DNA of 52,317 nt from Tyzzerella sp. (lineage in GTDB: Bacteria > Bacillota > Clostridia > Lachnospirales > Lachnospiraceae): the NCBI GenBank assembly GCA_017465565.1, contig JAFTWA010000048.1, forward strand, positions 1 to 52,317, in the 5' to 3' direction. Under the pieces are notes generated by a model, which was not told where the DNA came from, searched no databases, and saw only the letters and a list, made by a program, of their open reading frames with translations. The translations under genes and the position numbers were made by a program. How positions within the stretch are numbered: position 1 is the stretch's first letter; every line of letters begins with the position of its first letter. Below, one piece after another: positions 40,304-52,317 of the stretch.

Positions 40304-40774
40304 TCATTCCATTTTTTTATAAATAATCAATTGTGGAATAAAATATACTAAGTAATTATCAATTGTAGTATACACTCCGTACTTTTCACAATAGCATTTA
40401 ACAGCATCTTCAAGAAATTCTTCTGTTACTTCTAAAAACTCTGCAATCTCATGTTTGTTCTTGCATCCATGTTCATACGCGCGAACTAAACCTTTGAGGC
40501 CAATTTGGTTATTATATGCCCAAATTCTTGCTTGACGTTCTTGTTTCCGATTCGGGACATCTGAGAGATTAATAATATTACCAATAGAAGTGTGGTAATG
40601 TCCAAGCTCCTCAGCCAAAATACAAGCCCGCTCTTTAGAAGTCTCAATGTTGTTATTCAATGCAATAGTGCCCTGGCAATATAGTCCTTTTATTCTATCA
40701 CTGTTAAATTTGCGATGAATAATTTCTATACCGTCTTTGCAGGCTTCGTCTTCCAAACGTTCAAATACATTCAT
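40304..40774 (-). CDS. ImmA/IrrE family metallopeptidase
   Basis: This 156-residue protein belongs to the ImmA/IrrE family, in which a zinc protease cleaves a cognate XRE repressor to induce a mobile element. The motif ERACILAEELGHYHTSIG (about residues 68-85) corresponds to the family's HExxH site. In this clade the first His is replaced, giving AEELGHYHTS, so zinc coordination should be checked. The C-terminal half holds a wHTH-like segment (KHEIAEFLEVTEEFLEDAVKCY). It lies 51 nt downstream of the XRE repressor gene on the same strand, as in ImmR-ImmA modules such as that of ICEBs1. Confidence 0.88.
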   Translation of the reverse strand: MNVFERLEDEACKDGIEIIHRKFNSDRIKGLYCQGTIALNNNIETSKERACILAEELGHYHTSIGNIINLSDVPNRKQERQARIWAYNNQIGLKGLVRAYEHGCKNKHEIAEFLEVTEEFLEDAVKCYCEKYGVYTTIDNYLVYFIPQLIIYKKME

Positions 40775-40825
40775 GTTAACACCTCCCGCTCTAGTATAAC
40801 TTATAGCAGTGTCCTGAAATACGGA

Positions 40826-41155
40826 CTACTGTCTTTTACTCTTTACGAATTCGGCGAATTGACGAATTTCTTCCAATTCTTCTTCCGTATATTCAGTGCC
40901 GTCAAAATGTGCGGCAAGAGTAAAGGGTTCCTCAGATATGGCGTCATCATTTCCAAATAGATAGGATACAGTAGTATTTAACGCATTCGCGAAAGCAACT
41001 AATTTACTTTGAGGTAAATCTACCTTTCCTGCTTCTATCTTTGCGATTGCAGTTTTATCTTTGTATCCGACCATTTCTGCCAGTGCAGTCTGTGACAATT
41101 CCTTTTCAATTCGTAGTTCTTTAATTTTTGAACCTATTAGTTCTTGTGTTGACAT
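40826..41155 (-). CDS. XRE family repressor (ImmR-like)
   Basis: This 109-residue repressor has an N-terminal HTH (residues 6-68: IGSKIKELRIEKELSQTALAEMVGYKDKTAIAKIEAG). Its C-terminal segment AAHFDGTEYTEEELEEIRQFAEFVKSK is typical of repressors paired with ImmA proteases. It probably binds the four GTTGA-N7-TCAAC operators in the adjacent switch, controlling its own promoter and the rightward tail promoter (inference from position and repeat). It lacks a LexA/CI-type self-cleavage domain, so induction would need ImmA rather than direct RecA action. Confidence 0.92.
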   Translation of the reverse strand: MSTQELIGSKIKELRIEKELSQTALAEMVGYKDKTAIAKIEAGKVDLPQSKLVAFANALNTTVSYLFGNDDAISEEPFTLAAHFDGTEYTEEELEEIRQFAEFVKSKRQ

Positions 41156-41180
41156 ATTAGATACCGCCTTTCATATAAAG

Positions 41181-41209
41181 ATTATATCATGAAGAAGAAT
41201 TAAAATCAA
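41181..41209 (-). promoter_or_regulatory. Leftward promoter of the repressor-ImmA operon
   Basis: On the minus strand TTGATT (41209-41204), a 17-bp spacer and perfect TATAAT (41186-41181). The -35 lies inside operator 1. Confidence 0.75.
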
Positions 41210-41342
41210 CATTTTGAAAAAATAGTTGACAAATATTCAACCCTAGATTATTATTTATATGAAGTTGAATATAAATCAACTGCAAAATAAAATTGTGAGA
41301 ACAATTATATTTTTTTAACTGTGTAGTTGAATTAAAATCAAC
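41194..41342. promoter_or_regulatory. Four-operator genetic switch
   Basis: Four 17-bp elements share the arms GTTGA-N7-TCAAC: 41194-41210 (left arm degenerate, GAAGA), 41225-41241, 41264-41280 and 41326-41342. The last three have perfect arms. They span the region between the divergent XRE repressor and the late regulator, overlapping both promoters and lying close to the rightward ribosome site. A/T-rich centres support DNA bending by a dimeric HTH protein. Confidence 0.88.
41226..41254 (+). promoter_or_regulatory. Rightward promoter of the tail operon
   Basis: TTGACA (41226-41231), a 17-bp spacer and TATTAT (41249-41254). Its -35 lies fully inside operator 2, so repressor binding should exclude RNA polymerase. 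Confidence 0.75.
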
Positions 41343-41358
41343 AAAGGAGGTGTTTGAA

Positions 41359-41862
41359 ATGACAAAGAAGGTAATTGTTCAATACTTGGATTTGCAGAAA
41401 GAACATAAGGAGCTTCAAACAAAGCAAATAAAATTGGGTAAGGAGATACGTAATATAAGAAAGCGGCTGGAAGAAATCGAAGCAGGAGAGACAGTGAGGG
41501 ATAGAGTTCGAGGTGGCTTGGGCGGAATGCAGAGTTTTACAATCGAAGGAGTTCCAACAAGGGAATACACCGAGAAAAAAATAGAATTGAAGCAAAGAGA
41601 AAAGCTAATGGAAGAGCGAAAAATTATTCTATCTAAGTTGGAACTAGAGATTCTGGGAACAGTAAATGAGATTGAAAGGTTCATCGCAGGACTAGAAGAC
41701 AGTCACATGCGAAGAATCATAAATCTTCGCATTGTAGAAAAGAAGTCGTGGAATCAGGTGGCAGACCACATTGGCGGAGGGAACACAGAGGATAGTGTGA
41801 GAATGTCTTTTGAAAGATTTATGAAATCGAATACATGTTCGATAAATTCGGAAAAAGTATGA
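41359..41862 (+). CDS. Sigma-region-4-like phage regulator (DUF1492/ArpU-like)
   Basis: This 167-residue protein has a coiled-coil N-terminal half (DLQKEHKELQTKQIKLGKEIRNIRKRLEEIE, cited in part; about residues 10-45) and a C-terminal HTH resembling sigma-70 region 4: MRRIINLRIVEKKSWNQVADHIGG then SVRMSFERFMK. Proteins of this type (DUF1492, ArpU, RinA) activate late genes in Gram-positive phages. The start at 41359 has GGAGG 8 nt upstream; the in-frame GTG at 41350 overlaps that site. It is the first gene after the rightward promoter, directly before the tail genes, so it probably activates them. No early or replication gene lies between. Confidence 0.85.
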   Translation: MTKKVIVQYLDLQKEHKELQTKQIKLGKEIRNIRKRLEEIEAGETVRDRVRGGLGGMQSFTIEGVPTREYTEKKIELKQREKLMEERKIILSKLELEILGTVNEIERFIAGLEDSHMRRIINLRIVEKKSWNQVADHIGGGNTEDSVRMSFERFMKSNTCSINSEKV

Positions 41863-41932
41863 TAGTATTACAATCAGAAAACAGTTTTCACAAAAAGATT
41901 CGAATCAAAAGAAAGGAGGAGATATTGGAATC

Positions 41933-42325
41933 ATGTTAAATAAAGGTTCAGAAGTATTTGAAAATTTACAAACTCGTTTTCCAAAAAGCTTGAAAGAAAA
42001 ATATGCAAATTTAAAGTTCACTACTTCAAGCAGCGAAAGCGATGAAACCAATTTCCCACAAATTAATTTTCAACAAGTAACTGCCGTAGAAGTAGGGCAG
42101 GACTTATCGGGAGCGACAATGAATGGAGCACAATTTACCTTTCATATAACTGTGACAGACAACGAGAGTGCTAGCGCAGTAAACGAAGTGATGAGTGCGA
42201 TAGTGGACATCATGAAAGAGATGTTCTTCTCCATGAATCAGTTCCCGGAAATTCAAAATGATAGTGGTACATATAAGTCCGCAGCGAGATTTACAAGAGT
42301 TATCGGCGCGGGAGATGTACTGTAA
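41933..42325 (+). CDS. Phage tail terminator/completion protein
   Basis: This 130-residue protein fits the siphovirus tail terminator type that caps the tail tube. The pattern VEVGQDLSGATMNGAQFTFHITVTDN then VNEVMSAIVDIMKEMFFSMNQFPEIQNDSGTYKSAARFTRVIGAGD (cited in part) matches small tail completion proteins of clostridial prophages. It is immediately before the tail tube gene, its usual place. AAGGAGGA lies 12-13 nt before the ATG, slightly long. In a headless particle such a protein would seal the head-proximal end. Confidence 0.75.
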   Translation: MLNKGSEVFENLQTRFPKSLKEKYANLKFTTSSSESDETNFPQINFQQVTAVEVGQDLSGATMNGAQFTFHITVTDNESASAVNEVMSAIVDIMKEMFFSMNQFPEIQNDSGTYKSAARFTRVIGAGDVL

Positions 42326-42361
42326 AAAACAAGAAAGGTAAAAATTAGGAGGTAAAAAATT

Positions 42362-42841
42362 ATGGCACAAGCAGGATTAAGTACACTTGGCATTTTGTTT
42401 GGTTATGGAGTTGAAACAACAATCGGAGAAAAACCAGCAGCATTTAACTTATTAACAAGAATCAGTTCAATTGGAGGAGTAACTTTAGAGACAGAGCAGA
42501 TTGATGCTTCGGCGCTTGAGGATGCAATCACAAGATATGTTCCAGGAAGAGCAGACTCAGGTGGTTCATTCCCTGTAACAGTCAACATCACAGCTGAAAC
42601 AATCCAAGAATGGGAAACAGTTATTTCTGAATATCAGGCAGCTGAAAAAGAAGGAAAGAGAATGTGGTTTGAAACATACTCACCACGTCTTGACAAGGCA
42701 TTTTTCATTGTGGCAGCACCACCAATGCAGATTCCACAACCAGAAACAGAACAAAATGGATTATGGACTGTTGAGATGACACTCACAATTGAAGAGTACA
42801 AAGGACTTGATACAAAAATTGAACCAACTGCAGCAGCGTAA
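42362..42841 (+). CDS. Major tail tube protein
   Basis: This 159-residue protein is recognisable as a non-contractile phage tail tube subunit. The N-terminus LSTLGILFGYGVETTIGEKP is followed by the strand-rich core FNLLTRISSIGGVTLETEQIDASAL, YVPGRADSGGSFPVTVN and a final WTVEMTLTIEEYKGL. No sheath gene lies before it, so the tail is not contractile. AGGAGG precedes the ATG. A strong hairpin without a U-tract follows it, expected to stabilise this highly needed message. Confidence 0.87.
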   Translation: MAQAGLSTLGILFGYGVETTIGEKPAAFNLLTRISSIGGVTLETEQIDASALEDAITRYVPGRADSGGSFPVTVNITAETIQEWETVISEYQAAEKEGKRMWFETYSPRLDKAFFIVAAPPMQIPQPETEQNGLWTVEMTLTIEEYKGLDTKIEPTAAA

Positions 42842-42868
42842 GAAGCACAAGGTTGGTGTTGGAGATTG

Positions 42869-42896
42869 AGGTAAGTGGCAGTGATGCCACTTACCT
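42869..42896 (+). other. Stable GNRA-loop hairpin after the tail tube gene
   Basis: AGGTAAGTGGCA (42869-42880) pairs perfectly with TGCCACTTACCT (42885-42896) around a GTGA tetraloop. No T-run follows. It lies between the stop of the tube gene and the chaperone gene, and looks like an mRNA stabiliser or partial processing site rather than a full terminator. Confidence 0.75.
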
Positions 42897-42930
42897 TAGA
42901 CAGATGTCAAAGGAGGAGAAGGTTTAAATT

Positions 42931-43395
42931 ATGAAGTTATTAAATATTGGTGGAAAAGAGTACAAGTTAGAATTCACAATTGAAGCATCTTTATATAATG
43001 AATGTACAGAAAAGACAACTATGTTGATGCAGCAGCTGGCGGAAGCGCAGAAAGGTGGAGATGCAAAAGAATTAATTAAGTCCATTGCAGACATTCCACA
43101 GACTACATTAACCATGTTCTATGCAGGATTACTCGAGCATCATGGAGAAGAGGGTGACGGAACTGTTATCTCCAAGAAAGAGGCAAAGGTGTTAGTTAAG
43201 CAGTATTTCGAAGAGCACAAAGAGGATGGAACTGGAAACTTCTACGATCTTTTAGGTATGCTAATGGAGCAAATGGGTAAAGATGGTTTTTTCGGGCAGA
43301 TCGGTCTGACGCAGGGAGCGAAGCAGGCAGAAAAAACAGGGAAGGTGCCACAGGACCACAAAAAGAAAACAACAGCAAAAGCTACCGGCAAATAG
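42931..43395 (+). CDS. Tail assembly chaperone, short (G-type) product
   Basis: This 154-residue protein lies between tube and tape measure genes, the place of phage tail chaperone G. It starts MKLLNIGGKEYKLEFTIEASLYNEC, common to Gram-positive tail chaperones, and ends in a Lys-rich tail (PQDHKKKTTAKATGK). Near residue 119 the message contains a T TTT TTC slippery heptamer in frame, and the -1 frame beyond is open for about 160 codons, so a G-T fusion is predicted. The product is used in assembly and is not part of the mature tail (family knowledge). AGGAGGAGAAGG lies ahead of the start. Confidence 0.85.
   Translation: MKLLNIGGKEYKLEFTIEASLYNECTEKTTMLMQQLAEAQKGGDAKELIKSIADIPQTTLTMFYAGLLEHHGEEGDGTVISKKEAKVLVKQYFEEHKEDGTGNFYDLLGMLMEQMGKDGFFGQIGLTQGAKQAEKTGKVPQDHKKKTTAKATGK
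43287..43293 (+). other. Predicted -1 ribosomal slippery site
   Basis: T TTT TTC in the zero frame (codons TTT 43288-43290, TTC 43291-43293) matches X XXY YYZ exactly. A -1 slip enters a frame open from 43281 to 43775. A weaker alternative is C AAA AAG at 43359-43365. Confidence 0.75.
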
Positions 43396-43775
43396 TTTTT
43401 GAAGAGTTGCTTCCAAATGCGCTGGCCATTGGCGTTCCATATGATTTGTTTTGGCATCTGACTCCAAAGAAACTAGAAGCCTTTTATGAAGCGCACAGGC
43501 TTAAGCAGGAAATGCGCGATGGTGAAATGTGGATTATGGGAAGATATGTGTTGTCAGCAGTATCCGTAGCGGTTGAGCATTGTCTTGCAGGCAAAAAGGC
43601 GAAATCCGAATATCTTGAGAAGCCATTTATGCAATTGACAGGGCTACAAAATCAGGAAGAAGAGATTTTGCTGAGCGAGGAAGAAATACAAAGGCAGACA
43701 GAGCAGTTGTTTTTGCGGCTTCAAATTATGGGAACAAATTATAAAAATAACAAGCAAAAGGGCGATAGGGCTTAG
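43293..43775 (+). CDS. Tail assembly chaperone, T extension made by -1 frameshift
   Basis: The -1 frame encodes about 160 residues. The conserved part begins SYRQIVFEELLPNALAIGVPYDLFWHLTPKKLEAFYEAH, with WHLTPK typical of the T domain of Gram-positive siphophages. The conserved residues begin before the only nearby initiation codon (TTG at 43407), and no Shine-Dalgarno sequence is properly spaced from it, so independent initiation is unlikely. A slip at 43287-43293 would give a G-T protein of about 281 residues. T binds the tape measure during assembly (family knowledge). Confidence 0.8.
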   Translation, partial: RADRSDAGSEAGRKNREGATGPQKENNSKSYRQIVFEELLPNALAIGVPYDLFWHLTPKKLEAFYEAHRLKQEMRDGEMWIMGRYVLSAVSVAVEHCLAGKKAKSEYLEKPFMQLTGLQNQEEEILLSEEEIQRQTEQLFLRLQIMGTNYKNNKQKGDRA

Positions 43776-43797
43776 TTTTCTAAGTTTCTATCGTCCT
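43759..43797 (+). terminator. Hairpin at the end of the chaperone gene (attenuator-like)
   Basis: AGGGCGATAG pairs with CTATCGTCCT (one G-U), with an inner CTTAG/CTAAG stem around TTTT, then TTTATT. The T-extension stop lies inside it. It resembles an intrinsic terminator in the middle of the tail operon, so it may act as an attenuator between chaperone and tape measure. Confidence 0.6.
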
Positions 43798-43825
43798 TTA
43801 TTAAAAAAAGAAAGGTGGTGGTTAC

Positions 43826-45442
43826 GTGTCAAGTAAGGATAATTTGACGACTGAGTTTGTGATTGATACAAAACAGGCAGACAAAGCGATAGACAGAATG
43901 ATTTCAAAATTTGATAAACTGTCTGTTACAATAAGAAAAATGAGTGACACAAGTATAAAACAGCTTGCAAAAGGAGTTCAGCAGGTAACTGCCAATGCCT
44001 CGCAGCTGACGGCGGAGATGAATAATCTGGCGGATGTATTCGCAAAGGTGGTATCAGCGAGTCAAAGTGTTAATCTTTCTTCTAAAACAGAAGTTGTTGA
44101 GCCAAAATCAAACACAGGAGAATCTATACTGGTACCTATGGAGAATGTGGCGAAAAATACTAAGTCGTATATGGATAATATTGAGGGGTTAAGCGATGTT
44201 CTGGCGAATGTTAAAATATTATTATCAGGAGATCTTTTGGAAGGAGACGGATTTTTAGCAAAATTAGCTGATGTGATTGCTTTGACAGTAGGTGGTGCAG
44301 GAACTTTAGGTGAATCAATTATGGCGATTTATGGTATAGGAGGAGTAATAGCCATAGCGATAGGAGCGCTAATTACAGGTCTAAGTTTAGTATTTGCAAA
44401 GAATGAGGAAGTGAGAGAAGGAGTTAGCAATGCTTTAACATCAATAAATGAGGCTTTACAGCCTGTAACAGAATTTTTAGAAAAAGTATTTGTAAGCATT
44501 TGGCAAAACATGATAATACCTGTTTTAACATGTATAGGAGACACCGTTTTGCCTAAGGTAATGGAAGTATTCGGGAATTTGTGGAATAATGTATTAGTTC
44601 CGTTGGGAGAGTTTCTTGCAGGTGTTTTCGAGCCTATAGTAAAAGTTTTATCACGGGCATTTGAGGAAATTGGAGATGTAATAATCAAAGAAGTAATTCC
44701 GACAGTTCAAAGCGTTATTGATACTTTTACTTTTCTTTGGAGTGATGTATTTGTACCAATAGCTGAATATTTATGGGATATTTTTGGACCTGTGGTTAAT
44801 GATGTTTTCTACGGTATTGCAGATATAATAGAGGGAATCAAAAAAATTTTTGTGGGATTGATTAGATTCGTTACAGGTGTTTTTACTGGAGATTGGAGCA
44901 AAGCATGGGAAGGAGTGAAAAATATTTTCTCTGGAATATGGGAGATACTAATAGCGGATTTAATGACTCCAATTAATGGTATTTTAAGTTTGTTTGAAGG
45001 TTTGACAAATAAGATTATCGATGCATTTAATTTTATTAAGCGGTCATTAAATAAACTGAGTTTTAAAATACCTTTATGGGTTCCAGATGTTGGTGGCGAA
45101 AGTTTTGGATTCAAATTTTCAGAGTCTAAGCACATATCGATTCCTAGATTTGAAAATGGTGGTATTGTTGAAGATGGTCTATTCCAAGCAAGTCAAGGAG
45201 AATTAATTGGTAGATTTTCTAATGGTAAAACAGTTGTTGCAAATAATGAAATGATCACGGCAGGAATACAAGAAGCTGCTTATAGAGGTTTTAAACAGGC
45301 AATAGCAGAATGGAAAGGAGTCAGCAATAATACGACTATTCGAGTAGTAGGTGATCCATCTGGAATGTTTAAAGTGTGGAAAGAGGAGTGGAATAATGAG
45401 GCTAGACGAATCCAACACAACCCAGTAGAAATATATACTTAA
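43826..45442 (+). CDS. Tail tape measure protein (short)
   Basis: This 538-residue protein determines tail length. It starts at GTG 43826 after AAAGGTGGTGG. The N-terminus is helical (TKQADKAIDRMISKFDKLSVTIRKM). A hydrophobic segment lies near residues 169-193 (YGIGGVIAIAIGALITGLSLVFA). A Trp/Phe-rich repeated region (residues 215-390: FVSIWQNMIIPVLT, FGNLWNNVLVPLGEFLAGVF, FTFLWSDVFVPIAEYLWDIF, FTGDWSKAWEGVKNIFSGIW) is characteristic of tape measures, as is the C-terminal RFENGGIVEDGLFQASQGELIGRF then NEMITAGIQEA. At about 1.5 angstrom per residue it predicts a tail near 80 nm, shorter than in most siphophages. Confidence 0.92.
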   Translation: MSSKDNLTTEFVIDTKQADKAIDRMISKFDKLSVTIRKMSDTSIKQLAKGVQQVTANASQLTAEMNNLADVFAKVVSASQSVNLSSKTEVVEPKSNTGESILVPMENVAKNTKSYMDNIEGLSDVLANVKILLSGDLLEGDGFLAKLADVIALTVGGAGTLGESIMAIYGIGGVIAIAIGALITGLSLVFAKNEEVREGVSNALTSINEALQPVTEFLEKVFVSIWQNMIIPVLTCIGDTVLPKVMEVFGNLWNNVLVPLGEFLAGVFEPIVKVLSRAFEEIGDVIIKEVIPTVQSVIDTFTFLWSDVFVPIAEYLWDIFGPVVNDVFYGIADIIEGIKKIFVGLIRFVTGVFTGDWSKAWEGVKNIFSGIWEILIADLMTPINGILSLFEGLTNKIIDAFNFIKRSLNKLSFKIPLWVPDVGGESFGFKFSESKHISIPRFENGGIVEDGLFQASQGELIGRFSNGKTVVANNEMITAGIQEAAYRGFKQAIAEWKGVSNNTTIRVVGDPSGMFKVWKEEWNNEARRIQHNPVEIYT

Positions 45443-45465
45443 TAACACATTAAGAATCCTTTTTG

Positions 45466-45494
45466 TTGACGCAACATAGAATAAATAATATAAT
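45466..45494 (+). promoter_or_regulatory. Promoter of the moron-like cassette
   Basis: TTGACG (45466-45471), a 17-bp spacer and perfect TATAAT (45489-45494) lie 37 bp before the DUF4177 gene. It is a strong housekeeping promoter within the tail operon, so the cassette can be expressed when the tail genes are silent. Confidence 0.85.
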
Positions 45495-45531
45495 ATGTGT
45501 AAGTAAAAATTTCTAAAGTGAGGTAAAGGTT

Positions 45532-45798
45532 ATGGGATTTATGGACAAGGTACAACAAGAATCATCGTATTCAGTCGCCTCAGGTAATGAATACCAGTAT
45601 GTTGTATTGCAAGTGACATTAAAAGAGAAGTTTTTCGGAACAGGTTCTGGTAATTTAACTGAATTAGAAGAAGTAATTAATGCACAAGCACAGAAGGGAT
45701 ATCGCTTACATACTATTTCAACAGCTAATGGAGGTAGTAAAGGCTTGGGCGGTGGAGACCGAATTCAAGCAACTATGGTATTTGAAAAAATTAAATAA
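45532..45798 (+). CDS. DUF4177 domain protein
   Basis: This 88-residue protein resembles the DUF4177 family: EYQYVVLQVTLKEKFF, then LTELEEVINAQAQKGYRLHTIST and a closing strand IQATMVFEKI, the common strand-helix-strand layout with a conserved GY/GW. Function of the family is unknown. It has its own promoter and a terminator behind it, so it is a single-gene unit at the left end of the inserted cassette. Small DUF4177 proteins often sit beside zinc-ribbon and membrane-stress genes in Firmicutes (my recollection, not provable here). Confidence 0.75.
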   Translation: MGFMDKVQQESSYSVASGNEYQYVVLQVTLKEKFFGTGSGNLTELEEVINAQAQKGYRLHTISTANGGSKGLGGGDRIQATMVFEKIK

Positions 45799-45804
45799 CT
45801 GTTG

Positions 45805-45838
45805 TAAAGCTTTAGGACGTATTGGACTAAAGCTTTTT
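45805..45838 (+). terminator. Terminator after the DUF4177 gene
   Basis: AAAGCTTTAG (45806-45815) pairs perfectly with CTAAAGCTTT (45827-45836) around an 11-base loop, followed by TT. The trailing T-run is short. Confidence 0.7.
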
Positions 45839-45913
45839 CAGTATATTCAAATACAAAATAAATAGTATGTTTGAAAAGTCTGTTGAGAAATAGTGGTTTT
45901 TCAGATAAAAATG

Positions 45914-45922
45914 TGCTATAAT
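45914..45922 (+). promoter_or_regulatory. Extended -10 promoter of the SPFH gene
   Basis: TGCTATAAT (45914-45922) is a complete extended -10 motif, 41 bp before the SPFH start. No good -35 is placed at 16-18 bp. Confidence 0.6.
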
Positions 45923-45962
45923 TGATATATTATTTTGAGATAAAGATGAGGAGGATTTTCAT

Positions 45963-47246
45963 ATGGCTATTGTAGAAGTTATTAGTTATAATGGCAATCC
46001 GGATGTATTTGCATGGAAATATCCGAATAATGAATTAGGAACGTGGACTCAGTTGATTGTAAATGAGTCACAGGAAGCCATCTTGTTTAAGGGTGGTCAG
46101 GCATGCGATGTATTCCAAGCAGGCAGACATACTCTGAGTACAGCGAATATTCCTATTTTGAACAAATTGATAAATTTACCTTTCGGTGGGCGTTCGCCAT
46201 TCACAGCTGAAGTGTGGTATATTAACAAAGTATTTTCGTTAGATATAAAGTGGGGGACTTCGACGCCTATTCAATTACAGGATCCAAAGTATAAGGTATT
46301 TGTACCAGTACGTGCATTCGGTCAGTTTGGAATTCAGATTGAGGATTCAAAGAAATTTTTGATAAAATTAGTTGGTAATTTACCACAATTTGATAAGACA
46401 AATATATTAAAGTATTTTAGAGGAGTATATCTTACAAAATCGAAAGATGCGATTTCTTCTTATTTAGTACATAAAGGCATCAGCATCTTAGAGATAAATG
46501 CGTATTTGGATGAAATATCGGAATATCTTTGTGAAAAGATGTTGCCGATATTTGAAGAGTATGGTATTAAATTAACTTCTTTCTATGTGAATGATATTAA
46601 CGTACCAGAAGATGATAAGGCCGTAATCCAATTGAAAAATGCATTAGCAAAAAGAGCAGAGATGGATATTGTGGGATATAGTTATCAACAGGAGCGTTCA
46701 TTTGATACGCTAGAAGGTGCCGCTACTAATCCTAATTCAATGCAGGGGGGCTTAATGGGAGCCGGTATTGGTTTGGGTATGGGAGTTGGTGTTGGAGGCA
46801 CTATTGGTCAGCAATTTGGCGGATTAGCACACAACATGACAACTGAAGCAACAAAGGAATGTCCAAATTGCAAGAATAGAATTGGCGAAAAAGAACGTTT
46901 TTGTAGCCATTGCGGTTGTGATACAACAGCTTCTAATGTTAGTGGTGAAATTAAATGTGCTGTTTGTGGATGTAAGTTAGAGAGGACAACAAAGTTTTGT
47001 CCAGAGTGTGGAAAGAAATATAATCCATGTTCAAAGTGTGGTGCAGACATACCAAATGGTGCCGATAAATGTGCTGTTTGTGGGGAGAAAGTGCCAGTCG
47101 CATGTCCAAAATGTGGAAATTTGATATCAAATCAAAGTAAATTCTGCCCAGAATGTGGTCATTCGCTTATTAAGCATTGTCCTTCCTGCGGAAAACAAGT
47201 AGACAATGGTGCTAAATTCTGTTCAGAATGTGGTACAACTTTATAA
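45963..47246 (+). CDS. SPFH domain protein with five C-terminal zinc ribbons (YdjI-like)
   Basis: This 427-residue protein has an N-terminal SPFH/prohibitin-like domain (about residues 1-235), starting VEVISYNGNPDVFAWKYPN and carrying ESQEAILFKGGQACDVFQAGRHTLST and INLPFGGRSPFTAEVWYINK, hallmarks of the YdjI group also labelled virion core proteins. A Gly/Met-rich hinge follows (265-290), then ten CxxC knuckles forming five zinc ribbons (from ECPNC to CSECG). In B. subtilis, YdjI partners the PspA-like YdjF at the membrane under stress. GATGAGGAGG precedes the ATG. Finding it inside a tail operon is unusual; a membrane-scaffold or protection role is inferred. Confidence 0.88.
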   Translation: MAIVEVISYNGNPDVFAWKYPNNELGTWTQLIVNESQEAILFKGGQACDVFQAGRHTLSTANIPILNKLINLPFGGRSPFTAEVWYINKVFSLDIKWGTSTPIQLQDPKYKVFVPVRAFGQFGIQIEDSKKFLIKLVGNLPQFDKTNILKYFRGVYLTKSKDAISSYLVHKGISILEINAYLDEISEYLCEKMLPIFEEYGIKLTSFYVNDINVPEDDKAVIQLKNALAKRAEMDIVGYSYQQERSFDTLEGAATNPNSMQGGLMGAGIGLGMGVGVGGTIGQQFGGLAHNMTTEATKECPNCKNRIGEKERFCSHCGCDTTASNVSGEIKCAVCGCKLERTTKFCPECGKKYNPCSKCGADIPNGADKCAVCGEKVPVACPKCGNLISNQSKFCPECGHSLIKHCPSCGKQVDNGAKFCSECGTTL

Positions 47247-47261
47247 AGGGTGGTAGTGCTG

Positions 47262-47930
47262 ATGAATAAAAAAGAAAGAATGATACCAATCATATGCAGT
47301 ATGGTGTTAATTGTAACAACCATTATCTTCTATATTCTTACATTCAAGAATATATTTACAGTAACTATGCAATGGCTTTCGTTAATGATGTTGTTAGTTG
47401 CTGAAGTTATTGGGGCGATTAAGATTATTGCGAGCAAAGACTCTATCTTTAAAGTGGCAAATGTGATTGCAAGTGGCGTACATATTATAATTGTATTTGT
47501 TTGTTCTATCATATTTGTGAATTTTATGCCATTATTGCTAAAAACATACATTTTACTTAATGTTTTAGGGTTGGCAGGATTGACAATTACTGACATTTTA
47601 ATTATTTTCTTCCAGAGAAAAGTTAAAGAAAGTGATCAAGAACTCAAAGAAAAGCAAGAAATACTAAGGAAGTGTTTGGCTAAGACGCAGAGCTTAAGTG
47701 TAAAGTGTCAATCAATCAAGTGTGTCGAGGAGTTGAAGAAACTCGCAGAAATGCTAAAATATAGCGATAATTCTGTATCAACAGGTGATGAGTTGACAAT
47801 AATGACTATGCTCAACCAGTTGGACATCATTTCAGATGAAGAAGAAATGATAAGAAAAATAGCAGAAATAAAAAATATAGTTGAGATTAGAACAATCAGT
47901 GGAAAAGAGTTACAAAGAGGAAAGTTTTAA
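47262..47930 (+). CDS. Four-helix membrane protein with cytosolic coiled tail
   Basis: This 222-residue protein is not a recognised family. The start at 47262 (MNKKERMIPIICSMVL) has GGGTGG 8 nt upstream; the open frame begins slightly earlier. Four hydrophobic helices lie near residues 7-26, 36-56, 68-90 and 96-118. They are followed by a charged coiled-coil region (KVKESDQELKEKQEILRKC) and a Leu-rich helical end with acidic clusters. It follows the SPFH gene by 15 nt and is likely co-expressed with it. It could anchor the SPFH scaffold (inference). Confidence 0.65.
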   Translation: MNKKERMIPIICSMVLIVTTIIFYILTFKNIFTVTMQWLSLMMLLVAEVIGAIKIIASKDSIFKVANVIASGVHIIIVFVCSIIFVNFMPLLLKTYILLNVLGLAGLTITDILIIFFQRKVKESDQELKEKQEILRKCLAKTQSLSVKCQSIKCVEELKKLAEMLKYSDNSVSTGDELTIMTMLNQLDIISDEEEMIRKIAEIKNIVEIRTISGKELQRGKF

Positions 47931-47959
47931 GTACAAGAGAGCAAAGTGGAGGAAAAAAG

Positions 47960-48592
47960 ATGAATCAGAACGAAAAAATAAGCGTAATGTTTTCATGGCC
48001 AGTAATCATTATTGCATTTATTTTCTTTTGGCCTGTTGGAGTTGCATTACTTATAGGAAGAGTATCAAAAGATAAGAAAACAGCTATGAGTGTTGGAAAA
48101 ATTGTAAATGGACTTGGTATTGCTTCATATGTCATAGCAGCGATAGGAACACTTAGTTGTCTGAGCGCAGGAATCACAGGTGAAGATGTGGGAATGATAT
48201 TGTTCTTTGCTATCGCAGGTGTAGTTTTACAAAGAGTTGGAAAGAAAATGAAAAATGATGCTGAGAATGTAAGAAGATATTTGGCGATTATTGTAAATGG
48301 AAATGAAACAAGAATCGATAATATTGCAGCTGCTGTAGGAAAATCATATGATGTTTCTAAAGCGGACATTCAAAAGATGATTGACAAAGGATATTTAAAA
48401 GACGCATACATTAATGAAATCACAGGAGAAATTGTTTTACCAAATCGTATAGCTGATATAGTAACAAATGTTACAGAAAAAATAGAAACAGAAGTTCAAC
48501 CTCGAGTGGTTGTATGTAAATGTTGTGGGGCACAAAATACTCTCTCGTCGGCTACTGGCGAATGTGAATATTGTGGATCTCCAATAAGTTAA
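47960..48592 (+). CDS. Membrane protein with winged-helix-like region and C-terminal zinc ribbon
   Basis: This 210-residue protein has two N-terminal helices (about residues 10-32 and 52-70) and a third near 78-95. A cytosolic part reads RRYLAIIVNGNETRIDNIAAAVGKSYDVSKADIQKMIDKGYLKDAYIN, similar in layout to a PCI/winged-helix fold. The end is a single zinc ribbon (CKCCGAQNTLSSATGECEYCGSPIS). Similar membrane proteins with this region occur next to YdjI-like SPFH genes in Firmicutes. It follows the previous gene by 29 nt and ends the cassette, just before a terminator. Confidence 0.65.
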   Translation: MNQNEKISVMFSWPVIIIAFIFFWPVGVALLIGRVSKDKKTAMSVGKIVNGLGIASYVIAAIGTLSCLSAGITGEDVGMILFFAIAGVVLQRVGKKMKNDAENVRRYLAIIVNGNETRIDNIAAAVGKSYDVSKADIQKMIDKGYLKDAYINEITGEIVLPNRIADIVTNVTEKIETEVQPRVVVCKCCGAQNTLSSATGECEYCGSPIS

Positions 48593-48599
48593 TTTTTAT

Positions 48600-48631
48600 G
48601 GGAAGTACTAGTTTGTAGTACTTCCTTTTTC
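48600..48631 (+). terminator. Terminator closing the moron-like cassette
   Basis: GGAAGTACTA (48601-48610) pairs perfectly with TAGTACTTCC (48616-48625) around GTTTG, followed by TTTTTCT. It is a strong intrinsic terminator 33 bp before the distal tail gene. Confidence 0.9.
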
Positions 48632-48663
48632 TATACCAAAATATAAGAAGGAGTGTGATTTAT

Positions 48664-49068
48664 ATGGCTTATAGCGGATTTTTAGTAAAAGTGGGTGACT
48701 ACGAGTTACCTTTAAAATTTATAAAAGCTGATAGTTATAGCGTGTATCGAAATACGCAAGAGCTGGACAGTTACCGTGATGCAAATGGCAAGTTACATCG
48801 AAGTGCGTTAGAGCATATGCCGAACAAGGTGGAGTTTGATACAGTTTCTATGCTCACAAATGTACAGTTTGAAGAATTTATGTCAAATATCCGTAATCAA
48901 TATACAAGTACAGTGGAGCGGAAAGCGAGTGTAACATTATATATTCCGGAAATCAATGATTATGTGACACAGGATATGTATATGCCAGACATTCAGCCAA
49001 CTATTTATTTGGCAAATAATGAGATTATTAAATATAATTCTGTCCATGTGTCATTTATCGGCTATTAG
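48664..49068 (+). CDS. Phage distal-tail/baseplate-associated protein (DUF6711-like)
   Basis: This 134-residue protein starts at 48664 (MAYSGFLVKVGDYELPLKFI), with AAGGAG 10 nt upstream. The pattern SYSVYRNTQELDSYRDANGKLHRSALEHMPNKVEFDT (cited in part) is characteristic of the small DUF6711 baseplate-region proteins of clostridial and streptococcal prophages. It takes the place of the distal tail protein, between tape measure and tail-associated lysin genes, and is much shorter than classic Dit proteins. It reads as the tail operon resuming after the inserted cassette. Confidence 0.75.
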   Translation: MAYSGFLVKVGDYELPLKFIKADSYSVYRNTQELDSYRDANGKLHRSALEHMPNKVEFDTVSMLTNVQFEEFMSNIRNQYTSTVERKASVTLYIPEINDYVTQDMYMPDIQPTIYLANNEIIKYNSVHVSFIGY

Positions 49069-49079
49069 GAGGTGATGGA

Positions 49080-50648
49080 ATGATTGATTATAAATATAAA
49101 GACTTGTACACAAGTGACAGCGTGGACAAGCAATTAAGGATCAGCTTTGATGGTGGGATTATTACGAACGAAACACTTTATTCGGAAGGCATGGAGTTAA
49201 CACAAAGTCTATGTTCCGAATCGGAGTTACGATTTGGCTGTTGTGAAGCCAGCGTACTGAAATTTAAGATGGCAAACGTATTCACTCAATTGAAAGATAA
49301 ATGGCTTACAGTTACGGAAATCCTGGATGGAAGAACTGATGAGCCATTTTCTTTAGGAAAATATAAAGTCTATTCAGACACACCAGATGCTGAGAGAAAC
49401 TATCGCGATATTGTGGCCTATGATGCCATGTATGACATCATCAATAAAGATGTTGCGGAGTGGTACGAAGGTTTAGAGTTTCCGATTACGCAGAAAGATT
49501 TCCGAGACAGTTTCTTTGCGTATTTCGAAGTTGAACAAGAAGAAGTAATATTGATTCATGACAATATGGAGATCGAAAAGACAATTGAGACGGCAAGTAT
49601 TAGCGGTAAAGATATTGTAACCGCATTATGTGAGCTGAATGGTGTTTTCGGGCATATTAATTATCAAGGAAACTTTGAATATATTTCGCTGGGGCAGGAT
49701 GCGAATGAAATAGATTCAAGTTTGTATCAATCTGGTGAATATGAGGATTTTGAAACAAGTCTCATTTCAAAATTACAAATCAGAGAACAAGAGGGAGATA
49801 TTGGCGCGGTCTTTGGGGATGGCGCCAATGTTTATGTTGTTGAAGACAATTTTATTGTGTATGGAAAATCTCCAGATGAGTTGACAGAGATTTGTGAACG
49901 CTTATATGAGAAAATCTGTAATGTAACTTATAGACCATTTAAGGCAACCATAAAAGGGAACCCTTGTTATACCTTGGGAGATTTAGTGCTTATTCATACT
50001 AGAAATAAGGATGTGCAAGGCTATGTATTGGAAAGAACGTTAAGCGGTATTCAGTCGCTGAAAGATAGTTTCGAGTGTAAGGGAGTTTATGAGTATGAAG
50101 AAAAGGTGAATTCTCTTCAAAAAGAGGTAAAGCAATTACGCGGGAAGACTAACGTATTGGTGAGAACTGTAGAAGAGAATAAATTAAGAATCGAAGATGT
50201 TGCAAATAGTGCTTCGACTGAAATTCTTCAGACTTCAGAGCAGATTATGCTTGAGATCGCGGGTAAATACCACGACAAAGAATCAGTGGAGAGTATGGTA
50301 GAACATACCAATGAAAGTACGAAACAAGTATCTGAAAGCTTGCAAGATGAAATTGCCAAAGTGGACAAGGATTTACAAGAGAAGTTCAATCTGATTACGA
50401 CATATATGACATTCGACGTTAATGGACTGACAATCGGCAAAGTGGACAACCCATATAAGGTAGTTATTGATAATGATAGATTCAGTATGATTTTTCATAA
50501 TGATGAAGTATTGTGGATCGATTCGGTTACCGGCGAAGTTCATACACCTGGATTAACAGTCTCAAAAAAGATGAGTACTCTTGGTTATGTGGAAGAGATA
50601 GACGAAGCAGATAGAGTAAATTGTAGATATGTAGGAGGTGAATCATAA
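49080..50648 (+). CDS. Tail-associated/baseplate hub protein
   Basis: This 522-residue protein resembles the Tal/gp58-type minor structural proteins of Gram-positive siphophages. The N-terminal half is a hub-like fold (TSDSVDKQLRISFDGGIITNETLYSEG, FSLGKYKVYSDTPDAERNYRDIVAYDAMYDI). A central coiled-coil (about residues 340-430, EKVNSLQKEVKQLRGKTNVLVRTVEENKLRIEDV in part) trimerises. A C-terminal beta segment ends near DEADRVNCRYVGGES. No peptidoglycan hydrolase motif is seen, so wall penetration would depend on another protein. AGGAGG precedes the ATG. Its stop overlaps the next start (TAATG). Confidence 0.83.
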   Translation: MIDYKYKDLYTSDSVDKQLRISFDGGIITNETLYSEGMELTQSLCSESELRFGCCEASVLKFKMANVFTQLKDKWLTVTEILDGRTDEPFSLGKYKVYSDTPDAERNYRDIVAYDAMYDIINKDVAEWYEGLEFPITQKDFRDSFFAYFEVEQEEVILIHDNMEIEKTIETASISGKDIVTALCELNGVFGHINYQGNFEYISLGQDANEIDSSLYQSGEYEDFETSLISKLQIREQEGDIGAVFGDGANVYVVEDNFIVYGKSPDELTEICERLYEKICNVTYRPFKATIKGNPCYTLGDLVLIHTRNKDVQGYVLERTLSGIQSLKDSFECKGVYEYEEKVNSLQKEVKQLRGKTNVLVRTVEENKLRIEDVANSASTEILQTSEQIMLEIAGKYHDKESVESMVEHTNESTKQVSESLQDEIAKVDKDLQEKFNLITTYMTFDVNGLTIGKVDNPYKVVIDNDRFSMIFHNDEVLWIDSVTGEVHTPGLTVSKKMSTLGYVEEIDEADRVNCRYVGGES

Positions 50649-52317
50649 TGGCACTTAGTGGAAGTTTTAATACAAATTCATATAGTGGGCGTTACTATAC
50701 GCTTAGCTGGACTGCTTCTCAATCCGTAGCAAGTAATCAGTCCACAATTAATTGGACTATATCATGTGCTGGTGATAGTGGCGTATGGTATGCGGAGAGA
50801 ACGTTGGTGGCAGTAATTGCAGGAACAACAGTGTATTCTAAGACGGACAGGGTAGAGCGGTATTCGGGAACAATTGCAACCGGAACAATTACACTAAATC
50901 ATAATACAGATGGTACAAAAAGTTTCAGTGCTAGTTTGCAGGTGGCAGTTTATACTTCGGCTGTAAACTGTACTGGTTCAGGAAGTTTTACACTTAATAC
51001 CATTGCAAGAAAATCAACCCTTTCGGTACCCAATGGTACATTGGGAAAATCGCAAACACTTACTGTTGCAGAACAAGACGGGACATTCAAGCACAAATTA
51101 ATATATGCTTGTGGGAATGCATCTGGATATATTCTAGGAAGTTCTAGCAGTTTTTCTACATCAAACAGCGTTTCTTGGGAACCGCCTATATCCTTGGCAA
51201 GTCAAAATACATCCGGTGAGAATGTTTCTGTTACCTTTACCTTGTATACATATACAAGCGGTGGGACTTCAATTGGAAGTAATTCTTATACAAGAACATT
51301 TGCTATTCCAGCAACCGTTGCACCGATAGCAACAATTGAGGAACCAACTGATCCTGAAGGTTGGCTGGAACAATTCGGAAAGTTTATACAAGGAAAATCG
51401 ACTGTTGGAGTAGCAATTAAGGCTGAAGGAAGCTATGGTTCCACAATTAAGTCTTATAAAACAACAGTTGACGGAAAAACATACACAAATGCAGAATTTA
51501 CTACAGATGTACTTGCGGGGAAAGATACACTTACTATTACTGCTGTGGTGACGGATTCACGTGGACGTTCTGCAACAGCTACAAAAGAAATTGATGTATA
51601 CGAATATAAAGTGCCTAAGATAACATCACTCAATGCAAAACGATGTTTACAGGACGGCACCATTAATAATTCTGGTGCTTATTTGAAGGCTGAATTTAGT
51701 AACGAAGTCACATCTCTGGATGAACAGAATACGGCTAGTGTATCGATAAACTATAAAAAGAAGTCAGATAGCAATTTCAAATCTGTAATTTTGGGTGATT
51801 TTGAGAATACTTATTTAATTTCGGCTGGCAACTATATTTTTGAAGCTGACAAATCTTCAAGCTATGATATAGAAATTGTTGTTAAAGATGCGTTTGGCAC
51901 AATAAGAAAAAGAACGACAGGACCGTCTGAGGCGGTTTTTTCTTCTAAATTTAGACAAGGACTCGGATATGCGTTGGGAAAACTTGCAGAATTAGAAGGA
52001 GTATTTGATATTGGGTGGAAAACCCGGTTTTCTGGTGGAGTCCTACATTTAGTGTTGGATGAATTAACCGATTTAAATGAAATTTTAACACCTAATATTT
52101 ATGCGGGGCGTGATGTGGCAATAGCAGGTTATTCGAATTGTCCGGCTGATTATACGGAAGGGAAATTTACACTCGAAGTTGTTAGTTGCGGGGATAATGG
52201 TGAGTTAAAGCAAACATTTACTACTTGCAGTAAGGATAATCCGCAAGTGTATGTGAGATTTTATTATGATGGAGAATGGGGAGCATGGGTAAATCGATTT
52301 GCTGAATTAAATAGCAA
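50648..52317 (+). CDS. DUF859-type tail fibre with pyocin-knob domain (partial)
   Basis: The frame is open from the ATG at 50648 to the window end, at least 556 residues, so the 3' end is missing. The N-terminus MALSGSFNTNSYSGRYYTLS and a Ser/Thr/Tyr-rich body of Ig-like repeats match the DUF859 phage minor structural family. Near residues 470-555 the pattern DLNEILTPNIYAGRDVA, CPADYTEGKFTLEVV and QVYVRFYYDGEWGAWV is a pyocin-knob-like receptor-binding module. It is the candidate target-range determinant of the particle. It is coupled to the hub gene by a 1-nt overlap. Confidence 0.85.
   Translation, partial: MALSGSFNTNSYSGRYYTLSWTASQSVASNQSTINWTISCAGDSGVWYAERTLVAVIAGTTVYSKTDRVERYSGTIATGTITLNHNTDGTKSFSASLQVAVYTSAVNCTGSGSFTLNTIARKSTLSVPNGTLGKSQTLTVAEQDGTFKHKLIYACGNASGYILGSSSSFSTSNSVSWEPPISLASQNTSGENVSVTFTLYTYTSGGTSIGSNSYTRTFAIPATVAPIATIEEPTDPEGWLEQFGKFIQGKSTVGVAIKAEGSYGSTIKSYKTTVDGKTYTNAEFTTDVLAGKDTLTITAVVTDSRGRSATATKEIDVYEYKVPKITSLNAKRCLQDGTINNSGAYLKAEFSNEVTSLDEQNTASVSINYKKKSDSNFKSVILGDFENTYLISAGNYIFEADKSSSYDIEIVVKDAFGTIRKRTTGPSEAVFSSKFRQGLGYALGKLAELEGVFDIGWKTRFSGGVLHLVLDELTDLNEILTPNIYAGRDVAIAGYSNCPADYTEGKFTLEVVSCGDNGELKQTFTTCSKDNPQVYVRFYYDGEWGAWVNRFAELNS

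Follow-up and report, generated by a model that had tools for sequence, protein, structure and literature searches.

The window, meaning the whole stretch of DNA analysed here, is the complete contig C19 (JAFTWA010000048.1, 52,317 nt) of Tyzzerella sp. GCA_017465565.1, a draft genome of 3.22 Mb in 62 contigs with an estimated completeness of 88.6%. Positions 40304–52317 carry a repressor–protease pair, a regulator and a phage-type tail operon, together regarded in the original prediction as a candidate F-type tailocin, that is, a tail-only phage-like particle. The principal features are given below with their Pfam and PHROGs matches; L019 is a prophage used for comparison, and ORF stands for open reading frame.

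40304–40774, minus strand: immA-like gene, M78 metalloprotease (putative anti-repressor); Pfam PF06114, E 4.2e-10, above the cut-off; phrog_87, E 3.6e-33
40826–41155, minus strand: immR-like gene, XRE repressor; Pfam HTH_3, E 2.4e-12; PHROG transcription regulators
41225–41342, no strand: operator-type array, GTTGA-N7-TCAAC at 41225–41241, 41264–41280 and 41326–41342
41350–41862, plus strand: putative late regulator of the tail operon; phrog_36, E 3.5e-9; 51% identical to the L019 protein encoded between TerL and portal
41933–42325, plus strand: tail terminator, from its model fold; own phrog_78 match weak (E 0.019); homologue at L019:9480-9911 matches phrog_78, E 9.3e-7
42362–42841, plus strand: major tail (tube) protein; own matches weak; 67% identical to the L019 tube protein, which itself matches phrog_158, E 3.2e-6
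42931–43395, plus strand: probable tail chaperone, first gene, from position; phrog_36112 (no assigned function), E 3.2e-39; 25% identical to L018:2046-2531
43407–43775, plus strand: probable tail chaperone, second gene, from position; 45% identical to L019:11100-11435; phrog_2066 (no assigned function)
43826–45442, plus strand: short tape measure protein, 538 aa; phrog_1535, E 3.8e-26
48655–49068, plus strand: distal tail protein (Dit-like), from position and a weak tube-type fold; PF20458 (family without assigned function), E 1.5e-43
49080–50648, plus strand: tail hub or tail-associated protein; phrog_18190 (no assigned function), E 8.7e-143; phrog_6616 (tail), E 1.4e-7
50648–52317, plus strand: fibre stem gene, truncated where the contig stops; PF05895 (DUF859 type), E 1.3e-35; phrog_372 (tail), E 6.9e-72
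52302–52317, plus strand: crossover-type site, the last 16 bases of C19; present genome-wide as five exact copies (reversed control, 0)

A non-contractile tail gene set from terminator to fibre is present, in the order and at the positions originally proposed, with the two chaperones assigned by position. All tail reading frames in 40304–52317 are open, and that of the fibre runs off the contig, which stops within it at base 52317. Since the profile match of the terminator alone was weak, the protein was modelled with AlphaFold (AF2) from 4 sequences, giving a mean predicted local distance difference test (pLDDT) score of 80.8. Foldseek returned 28 matches for this model at E ≤ 0.001, headed by the connector assembly of phage Bxb1 and including lambda gpU (E 1.9e-5), Listeria antigen B (1.8e-4) and the monocin cap (6.0e-4), with template modelling (TM) scores of about 0.5–0.6. 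The Dit model retrieved tube-fold proteins, with just 2 matches at E ≤ 0.001 and a TM-score of 0.45. Residues 439–537 of the tape measure protein match the last 104 residues of a 1291-aa L019 protein, and residues 439–503 match near the C-terminal ends of relatives of 1530–1683 aa; with a tape measure of 538 aa, a short tail is expected. The hub is 61% identical over 420 aa to a protein of a second phage-type element of the genome, the prophage on contig C62. Neither hub nor fibre matched a PDB sequence at E 0.1, and a search of the genome collection for hub relatives gave 9 pattern matches with no true relative among them.

The remainder of the element was located by searching contig ends with the window genes and with genes of related prophages, which identified the right end of contig C20. 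In reverse complement order this end carries an inverted fibre-tip fragment, a 61-aa ORF, a 90-aa ORF, an amidase endolysin ending at 1359 and, starting 51 bases after it, the host HlyIII gene. The endolysin matches phrog_435 (E 1.3e-55) and contains Amidase_3 plus SPOR, whereas the 61- and 90-aa proteins have weak family matches only and are holin-like by position; all the lysis reading frames on C20 are open. The element thus has what appears to be a lysis module of its own, and the rightward extension called for in the original prediction reaches endolysin and holin-like genes and then host sequence.

On C19 the left flank of the element is a DUF4340 gene. Nine congeners (G001–G009) were available for comparison, the species itself being represented by one strain. 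In four of the nine (G004, G005, G006 and G008) a DUF4340 or DUF4340-like gene adjoins HlyIII with 37–56 bp between them, which indicates that C19 and C20 flank one insertion. In G009 the gene after DUF4340 shares 68% identity with the MocR-type gene situated past HlyIII on C20, and the element is absent there; G001, G002, G003 and G007 are uninformative on the insertion site, the loci of G001 and G002 being unmapped. Judged from its flanks, the element is a single insertion of about 13.4 kb plus an unsequenced C19–C20 gap of undefined length, in the order ImmA/ImmR, late regulator, tail, fibre, gap and lysis. The longest word shared by the two flanks is 9 nt, a length at chance level, and attachment (att)-type flanking repeats were rejected.

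In the PHROGs scan none of the 15 proteins encoded in 40304–52317 could be assigned convincingly to a head, packaging, integrase, replication or sheath family, the sole head-category rows being weak ones for the regulator (E 0.017) and the tape measure (E 0.056). No head, packaging, replication or integration gene was found in C19 40304–52317 plus the 1.36-kb C20 end, the two sequenced parts on either side of the gap. Within these parts the claimed lack of integrase, replication, terminase, portal and capsid genes was borne out by PHROGs, and that of a sheath gene by Pfam and PHROGs among the scanned proteins; terminase, portal and capsid genes, whose presence close downstream would contradict a tailocin, were looked for in the 1.36-kb C20 end and none was found there.

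In prophage L019 the genes run TerL, regulator homologue (51%), portal, capsid, adaptor, neck, terminator, tube (67%) and remaining tail, and the homologues in L019 cover the window regulator, terminator, tube, second chaperone, tape measure, Dit and hub. In the window 70 bases separate the regulator from the terminator, where L019 has portal, capsid, adaptor and neck in between. Such an arrangement might arise as an assembly chimera in which an unrelated regulator region was joined to phage tail genes, and the assembly is indeed a draft of 62 contigs. We consider this extremely improbable, because the regulator at 41350 is homologous to the phage regulator of L019 and lies 70 bp before the terminator, and the flanks agree with the congeners on both sides.

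A total of 36 loci with a tube ORF were compared, with L022, L211 and L212 left out; in 33 of the 36 the sequence preceding the tube is 1.5 kb or longer, and head and neck genes were called at E ≤ 1e-4. Such genes precede the tube in 30 of these 33 virus contigs, which form 23 clusters once near-identical tubes are pooled. Among the three contigs lacking them, L204 starts within a neck gene (E 9e-6). The other two, L186 (1847-10691) and L188 (453-5640), are IMG/VR contigs with a tail cluster free of head genes in the available sequence; both contigs are fragments, and families were scanned for L186 only. Their order is a phrog_36-type regulator with a sigma factor (and in L186 also a holin), tube, chaperone-position genes, endolysin and tape measure. 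Between L186 and L188 the nonsynonymous divergence (dN, 0.029–0.179) is far below the synonymous divergence (dS, 0.63–1.31) in all seven gene stretches compared, so the two have the appearance of an independent tail-only cluster maintained by selection, distinct from the window locus. A tube relative retrieved from the genome collection was set aside, being a single 3.5-kb contig on which neck-type genes precede the tube.

The regulatory region has the layout of an ImmR–ImmA-style switch, as first proposed, with M78 protease and XRE repressor at the expected positions by both Pfam and PHROGs. The stretch from immR to the late regulator contains three GTTGA-N7-TCAAC palindromes. The tighter form of this pattern occurs at 3 places in the window against 0.02 matches expected, and a looser form at 4 places in the whole 3.2 Mb genome, of which three are in this stretch (the reversed control has 1). 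A version allowing 3 mismatches was discarded: it gave 6 matches, all within 41194–41342, against 2.4 expected, and 3 shuffles also reached 6. The first palindrome overlaps the −35 element of a promoter-like site at 41226–41254, one of three such sites that match at 11 of 12 positions. The promoter scan returned 60 sites where 41.8 (standard deviation 6.7) are expected by chance, so single sites mean little. By their position the palindromes would be the sites that ImmR occupies before the late regulator. The gene at 41350–41862 had been called a sigma-like late regulator. Its role as a regulator is upheld by phrog_36, whereas the sigma-like label is not shown, as the protein has no Pfam match.

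The last bases of C19, inside the fibre gene, form a recombination-type site that the original prediction had missed, as it had missed that the window is a whole contig. The 16-bp site CTKARTTAAATRGCAA occurs exactly five times in the 3.2 Mb genome, always in a fibre-tip region: at the end of C19, at the end of C20 (inverted relative to the operon) and three times in the fibre region of the C62 prophage. Read from its end, C20 begins with an oppositely oriented tip that has a stop codon before it, continues with the site and then enters the lysis genes; this tip is 59% identical over 49 residues to a C62 fibre tip. Inverted site copies therefore flank alternative C-terminal coding segments, in the window element across the contig gap. 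The first 141 bases of C20 consist of 128 bases of tip and 13 bases common with the C19 end, the codon phase is the same on both sides of the shared stretch, and 141 is the commonest contig-end overlap in the assembly (12 of 32 ordered overlaps). Both contig ends thus fit a branch in an assembly with k=141, as an assembler of this kind would normally halt where the reads diverge past such points, and inversion of the tip in the sampled population is the best reading; contigs may also end through low coverage or a mixture of strains. The three C62 copies did not break their contig. A one-mismatch copy on contig C38 was set aside as it lies inside a small ORF. With up to 2 mismatches, the site and its reversed control were found 5 and 9 times in G003, 15 and 23 times in G004 and 11 and 6 times in G005, with no exact copy in these congeners, and 1 and 0 times in the L019 record; in the congeners the site thus stands out no more than its control.

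The same breaks could reflect an allelic difference between strains in the sample with no inversion at all, as strain mixture or low coverage can break an assembly graph and no invertase was seen. Such a difference does not readily account for the reversed C20 tip beside an inverted site copy with a stop codon just before it, nor for the inverted copies in the C62 prophage, and we regard it as rather unlikely. A second alternative is a complete prophage whose head genes lie in the C19–C20 gap, which is unsequenced in a genome estimated to be incomplete. Placing head genes between fibre and holin would depart from the customary gene order, and both contig ends stop at crossover-type sites, as would fit the loss of short tip segments as small contigs. 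Moreover, no ORF of the searched L019 part matched any searched contig end at E 1e-4, and hidden head genes are accordingly given very little credence. Tip inversion is retained here as the preferred reading of the breaks, and the fibre is best called shufflon-like, making the whole a putative F-type tailocin with such a fibre. Candidates for the invertase are the C62 integrase or a gene in the C19–C20 gap.

Contig C62 (L011, L012 and L169) holds a complete-looking siphoprophage with integrase, small terminase, portal, capsid, tail and endolysin. Its Dit and hub are 63% and 61% identical to those of the window, and it has its own copies of the fibre-tip site. Two of these make up a pair of 38-nt inverted arms with 87% complementarity, enclosing small ORFs whose position marks them as tip-like. 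A 27-base stretch spanning the site is 96% identical between C20 and C62. Because both elements carry the rare 16-bp site and this stretch, we propose, tentatively and with the odds somewhat against it, an F-type tailocin in an anaerobe whose target range is diversified by a shufflon, with one recombinase acting in trans on tailocin and C62 prophage alike. The C62 prophage also encodes a 74-aa M78-like protein (L011:598-822), below the Pfam cut-off, that adjoins its repressor. The window ImmR and the C62 repressor gave no alignment, and hence no sign of shared control. In Listeria the protease MpaR exerts cross-control, a role that might be considered for the window ImmA towards the C62 prophage as well.

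Taken together, the lysis genes and host flank on C20, the lack of head genes in the sequenced parts and a layout like that of the Listeria monocin speak for the tailocin originally suggested, and we think it probable that the locus is a functional F-type tailocin, headless and sheathless. From the genes and their order, the element boundaries, the palindromes, the sites and the assembly breaks at them, we infer the following course of regulation, particle formation, killing and tip inversion. In growing cells ImmR would be bound to the palindromes between immR and the late regulator, and under stress ImmA would cleave or inactivate ImmR, allowing the late regulator to be made. The latter would drive one rightward operon of terminator, tube, chaperones, short tape measure, Dit, hub and fibre, after which holin and amidase would lyse the cell and free the tails. 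These would bind related bacteria through the fibre tip and, by analogy, kill them by opening the envelope. The stem ends in the 16-bp site, and a presumably silent, reversed tip lies beside the inverted site copy before the lysis genes; an inversion with these sites as end points would put another tip on the stem, so that the population would make tails with different targets.

Several observations weigh against this interpretation. The tape measure of 538 aa is shorter than every complete one compared, these being 777–1930 aa in the 15 relatives kept by the filter, 2322 aa in L179, 670 aa in L189 and 1747 aa in both L205 and L208 among the four complete ORFs dropped by it, and 763 aa in the C62 prophage. 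The chaperones were called by position, and the terminator and Dit by model folds with moderate TM-scores. A terminator-like hairpin at 48600–48626 falls inside the tail operon, the sequence between C19 and C20 is unread, and reading through the ORFs of C19, C62 and the C20 end revealed no invertase beside the sites, no recombinase profile search having been made. Of 397 family and 10 genus genomes none but its own has the tube; of 392 order genomes 3 have it, its own included and one of the other two being a 38-residue match, so the element may be a recent or rare event.

Part of the evidence would also fit a tail-only prophage remnant, the alternative named in the original prediction, namely an L019-type siphoprophage stripped by deletion of its integrase, replication, packaging and head genes, whose tail operon has so far not decayed: the tube is present in 1 of the 397 family genomes, one strain alone represents the species, the flanks share no word beyond 9 nt, and the sequenced parts of the element contain no integrase. 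Yet the frames of tail, regulator and lysis genes are all open, the genes retained are a monocin-like set, ImmR-type palindromes stand directly before the late regulator, and the fibre-tip sites look active. A remnant therefore seems to us an unlikely explanation, and the functional tailocin is preferred.

Between tape measure and Dit lies a four-gene block at 45532–48592 that the original prediction had overlooked.

45532–45798, plus strand: small DUF4177 protein; PF13783, E 2.3e-7; phrog_22683
45963–47246, plus strand: SPFH/Band-7 protein with zinc ribbons; PF13421, E 1.6e-47
47250–47930, plus strand: hydrophobic protein (judged by eye from the sequence) with no convincing family match
47960–48592, plus strand: protein with hydrophobic stretches and no family; followed by the terminator-like hairpin at 48600–48626

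A promoter-like site at 45466–45494 (11 of 12) precedes the block, and the hairpin scan gave 10 terminator-like hairpins against 5.8 expected. With its own promoter-like site and terminator-like hairpin, the block resembles a moron. Matches to the DUF4177 protein come from 44 phage records, of which 43 are from Streptococcus and one is from Enterococcus, with identities of 83–85% among the 20 of the 44 listed; the gene is shared with Streptococcus satellite phages. The SPFH/zinc-ribbon protein has distant phage matches only, in 5 records. L019 has in the same slot a different zinc-ribbon gene with weak superinfection-exclusion matches. No defence family was matched convincingly by the cargo proteins, and a role in self-protection is a guess.

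Among published systems, the Listeria monocin (ftb cluster) is the closest concept, as had been suggested. Its regulatory module has a CI-like repressor and the metalloprotease MpaR facing one way and the tail genes the other, with no early module (PMC6872733), and the window shares this repressor–protease, tail and lysis layout. In both, the repressor and an ImmA-type protease diverge from the tail operon, early module and capsid are lacking (in the window element, from its sequenced parts), and holin and endolysin come last (PMC6872733, PMC7076858). The modelled terminator also appears to share the fold of the monocin cap and Listeria antigen B. The likeness is one of layout and terminator fold and not, for the tail proteins, of demonstrated sequence homology (relatives of lmaC and lmaD were not searched for); the window differs in its DUF859-type fibre with invertible-type tip sites and in the cargo block within the operon. 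An XRE repressor adjoining an M78 protease recalls ImmR–ImmA of ICEBs1, as described in PMC6872733, although the window switch faces a tail operon and not a conjugative element.

Exchange of a tail-fibre part by DNA inversion is described for carotovoricin Er of Pectobacterium (PMC12090994, PMC13195805), an R-type particle that, unlike the window locus, is contractile, Gram-negative and accompanied by the invertase ein in about half of loci, the window having no invertase in its ORF lists. Prophage tail-fibre inversions are documented in 4 Proteobacteria species (PMC5903667). The Rin shufflon of Bifidobacterium prophages likewise has short asymmetric crossover sites before alternative C-termini of the receptor-binding protein, in gut Gram-positive prophages; the phages there are complete, encode a tyrosine invertase adjacent to the cassette and have an 11-bp site of other sequence (PMC6109161). 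Rhizoviticin of Allorhizobium, called a rare F-type example beside F-pyocin and monocin, resembles the window element, as sequenced, in having retained tail and lysis and lost the head, with other prophages resident, and differs in keeping replication genes and an integrase remnant, in its 22.7 kb and in its Gram-negative host (PMC10811719). Clostridial R-type tailocins and diffocin are phage-tail particles of Gram-positive anaerobes too, and are contractile, unlike the particle predicted for the window locus. According to a review, capsid genes appear conserved in Gram-positive tailocin prophages (PMC10538166), whereas none was seen in the window element.

Few F-type tailocins have been described, and a search of a partial literature collection for Lachnospiraceae tailocins found no paper that by its title deals with one of this kind. 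The locus offers a testable case of a phage-type repressor directly facing a late tail operon, and L186 and L188 suggest that this tube family includes further tail-only clusters that selection maintains. If one recombinase does serve both elements of this genome, fibre tips could be shuffled within, and perhaps exchanged between, a weapon and a phage. An F-type tailocin with an exchangeable tip, if that is what the locus encodes, would be an example of how a single compact locus could retain more than one target.

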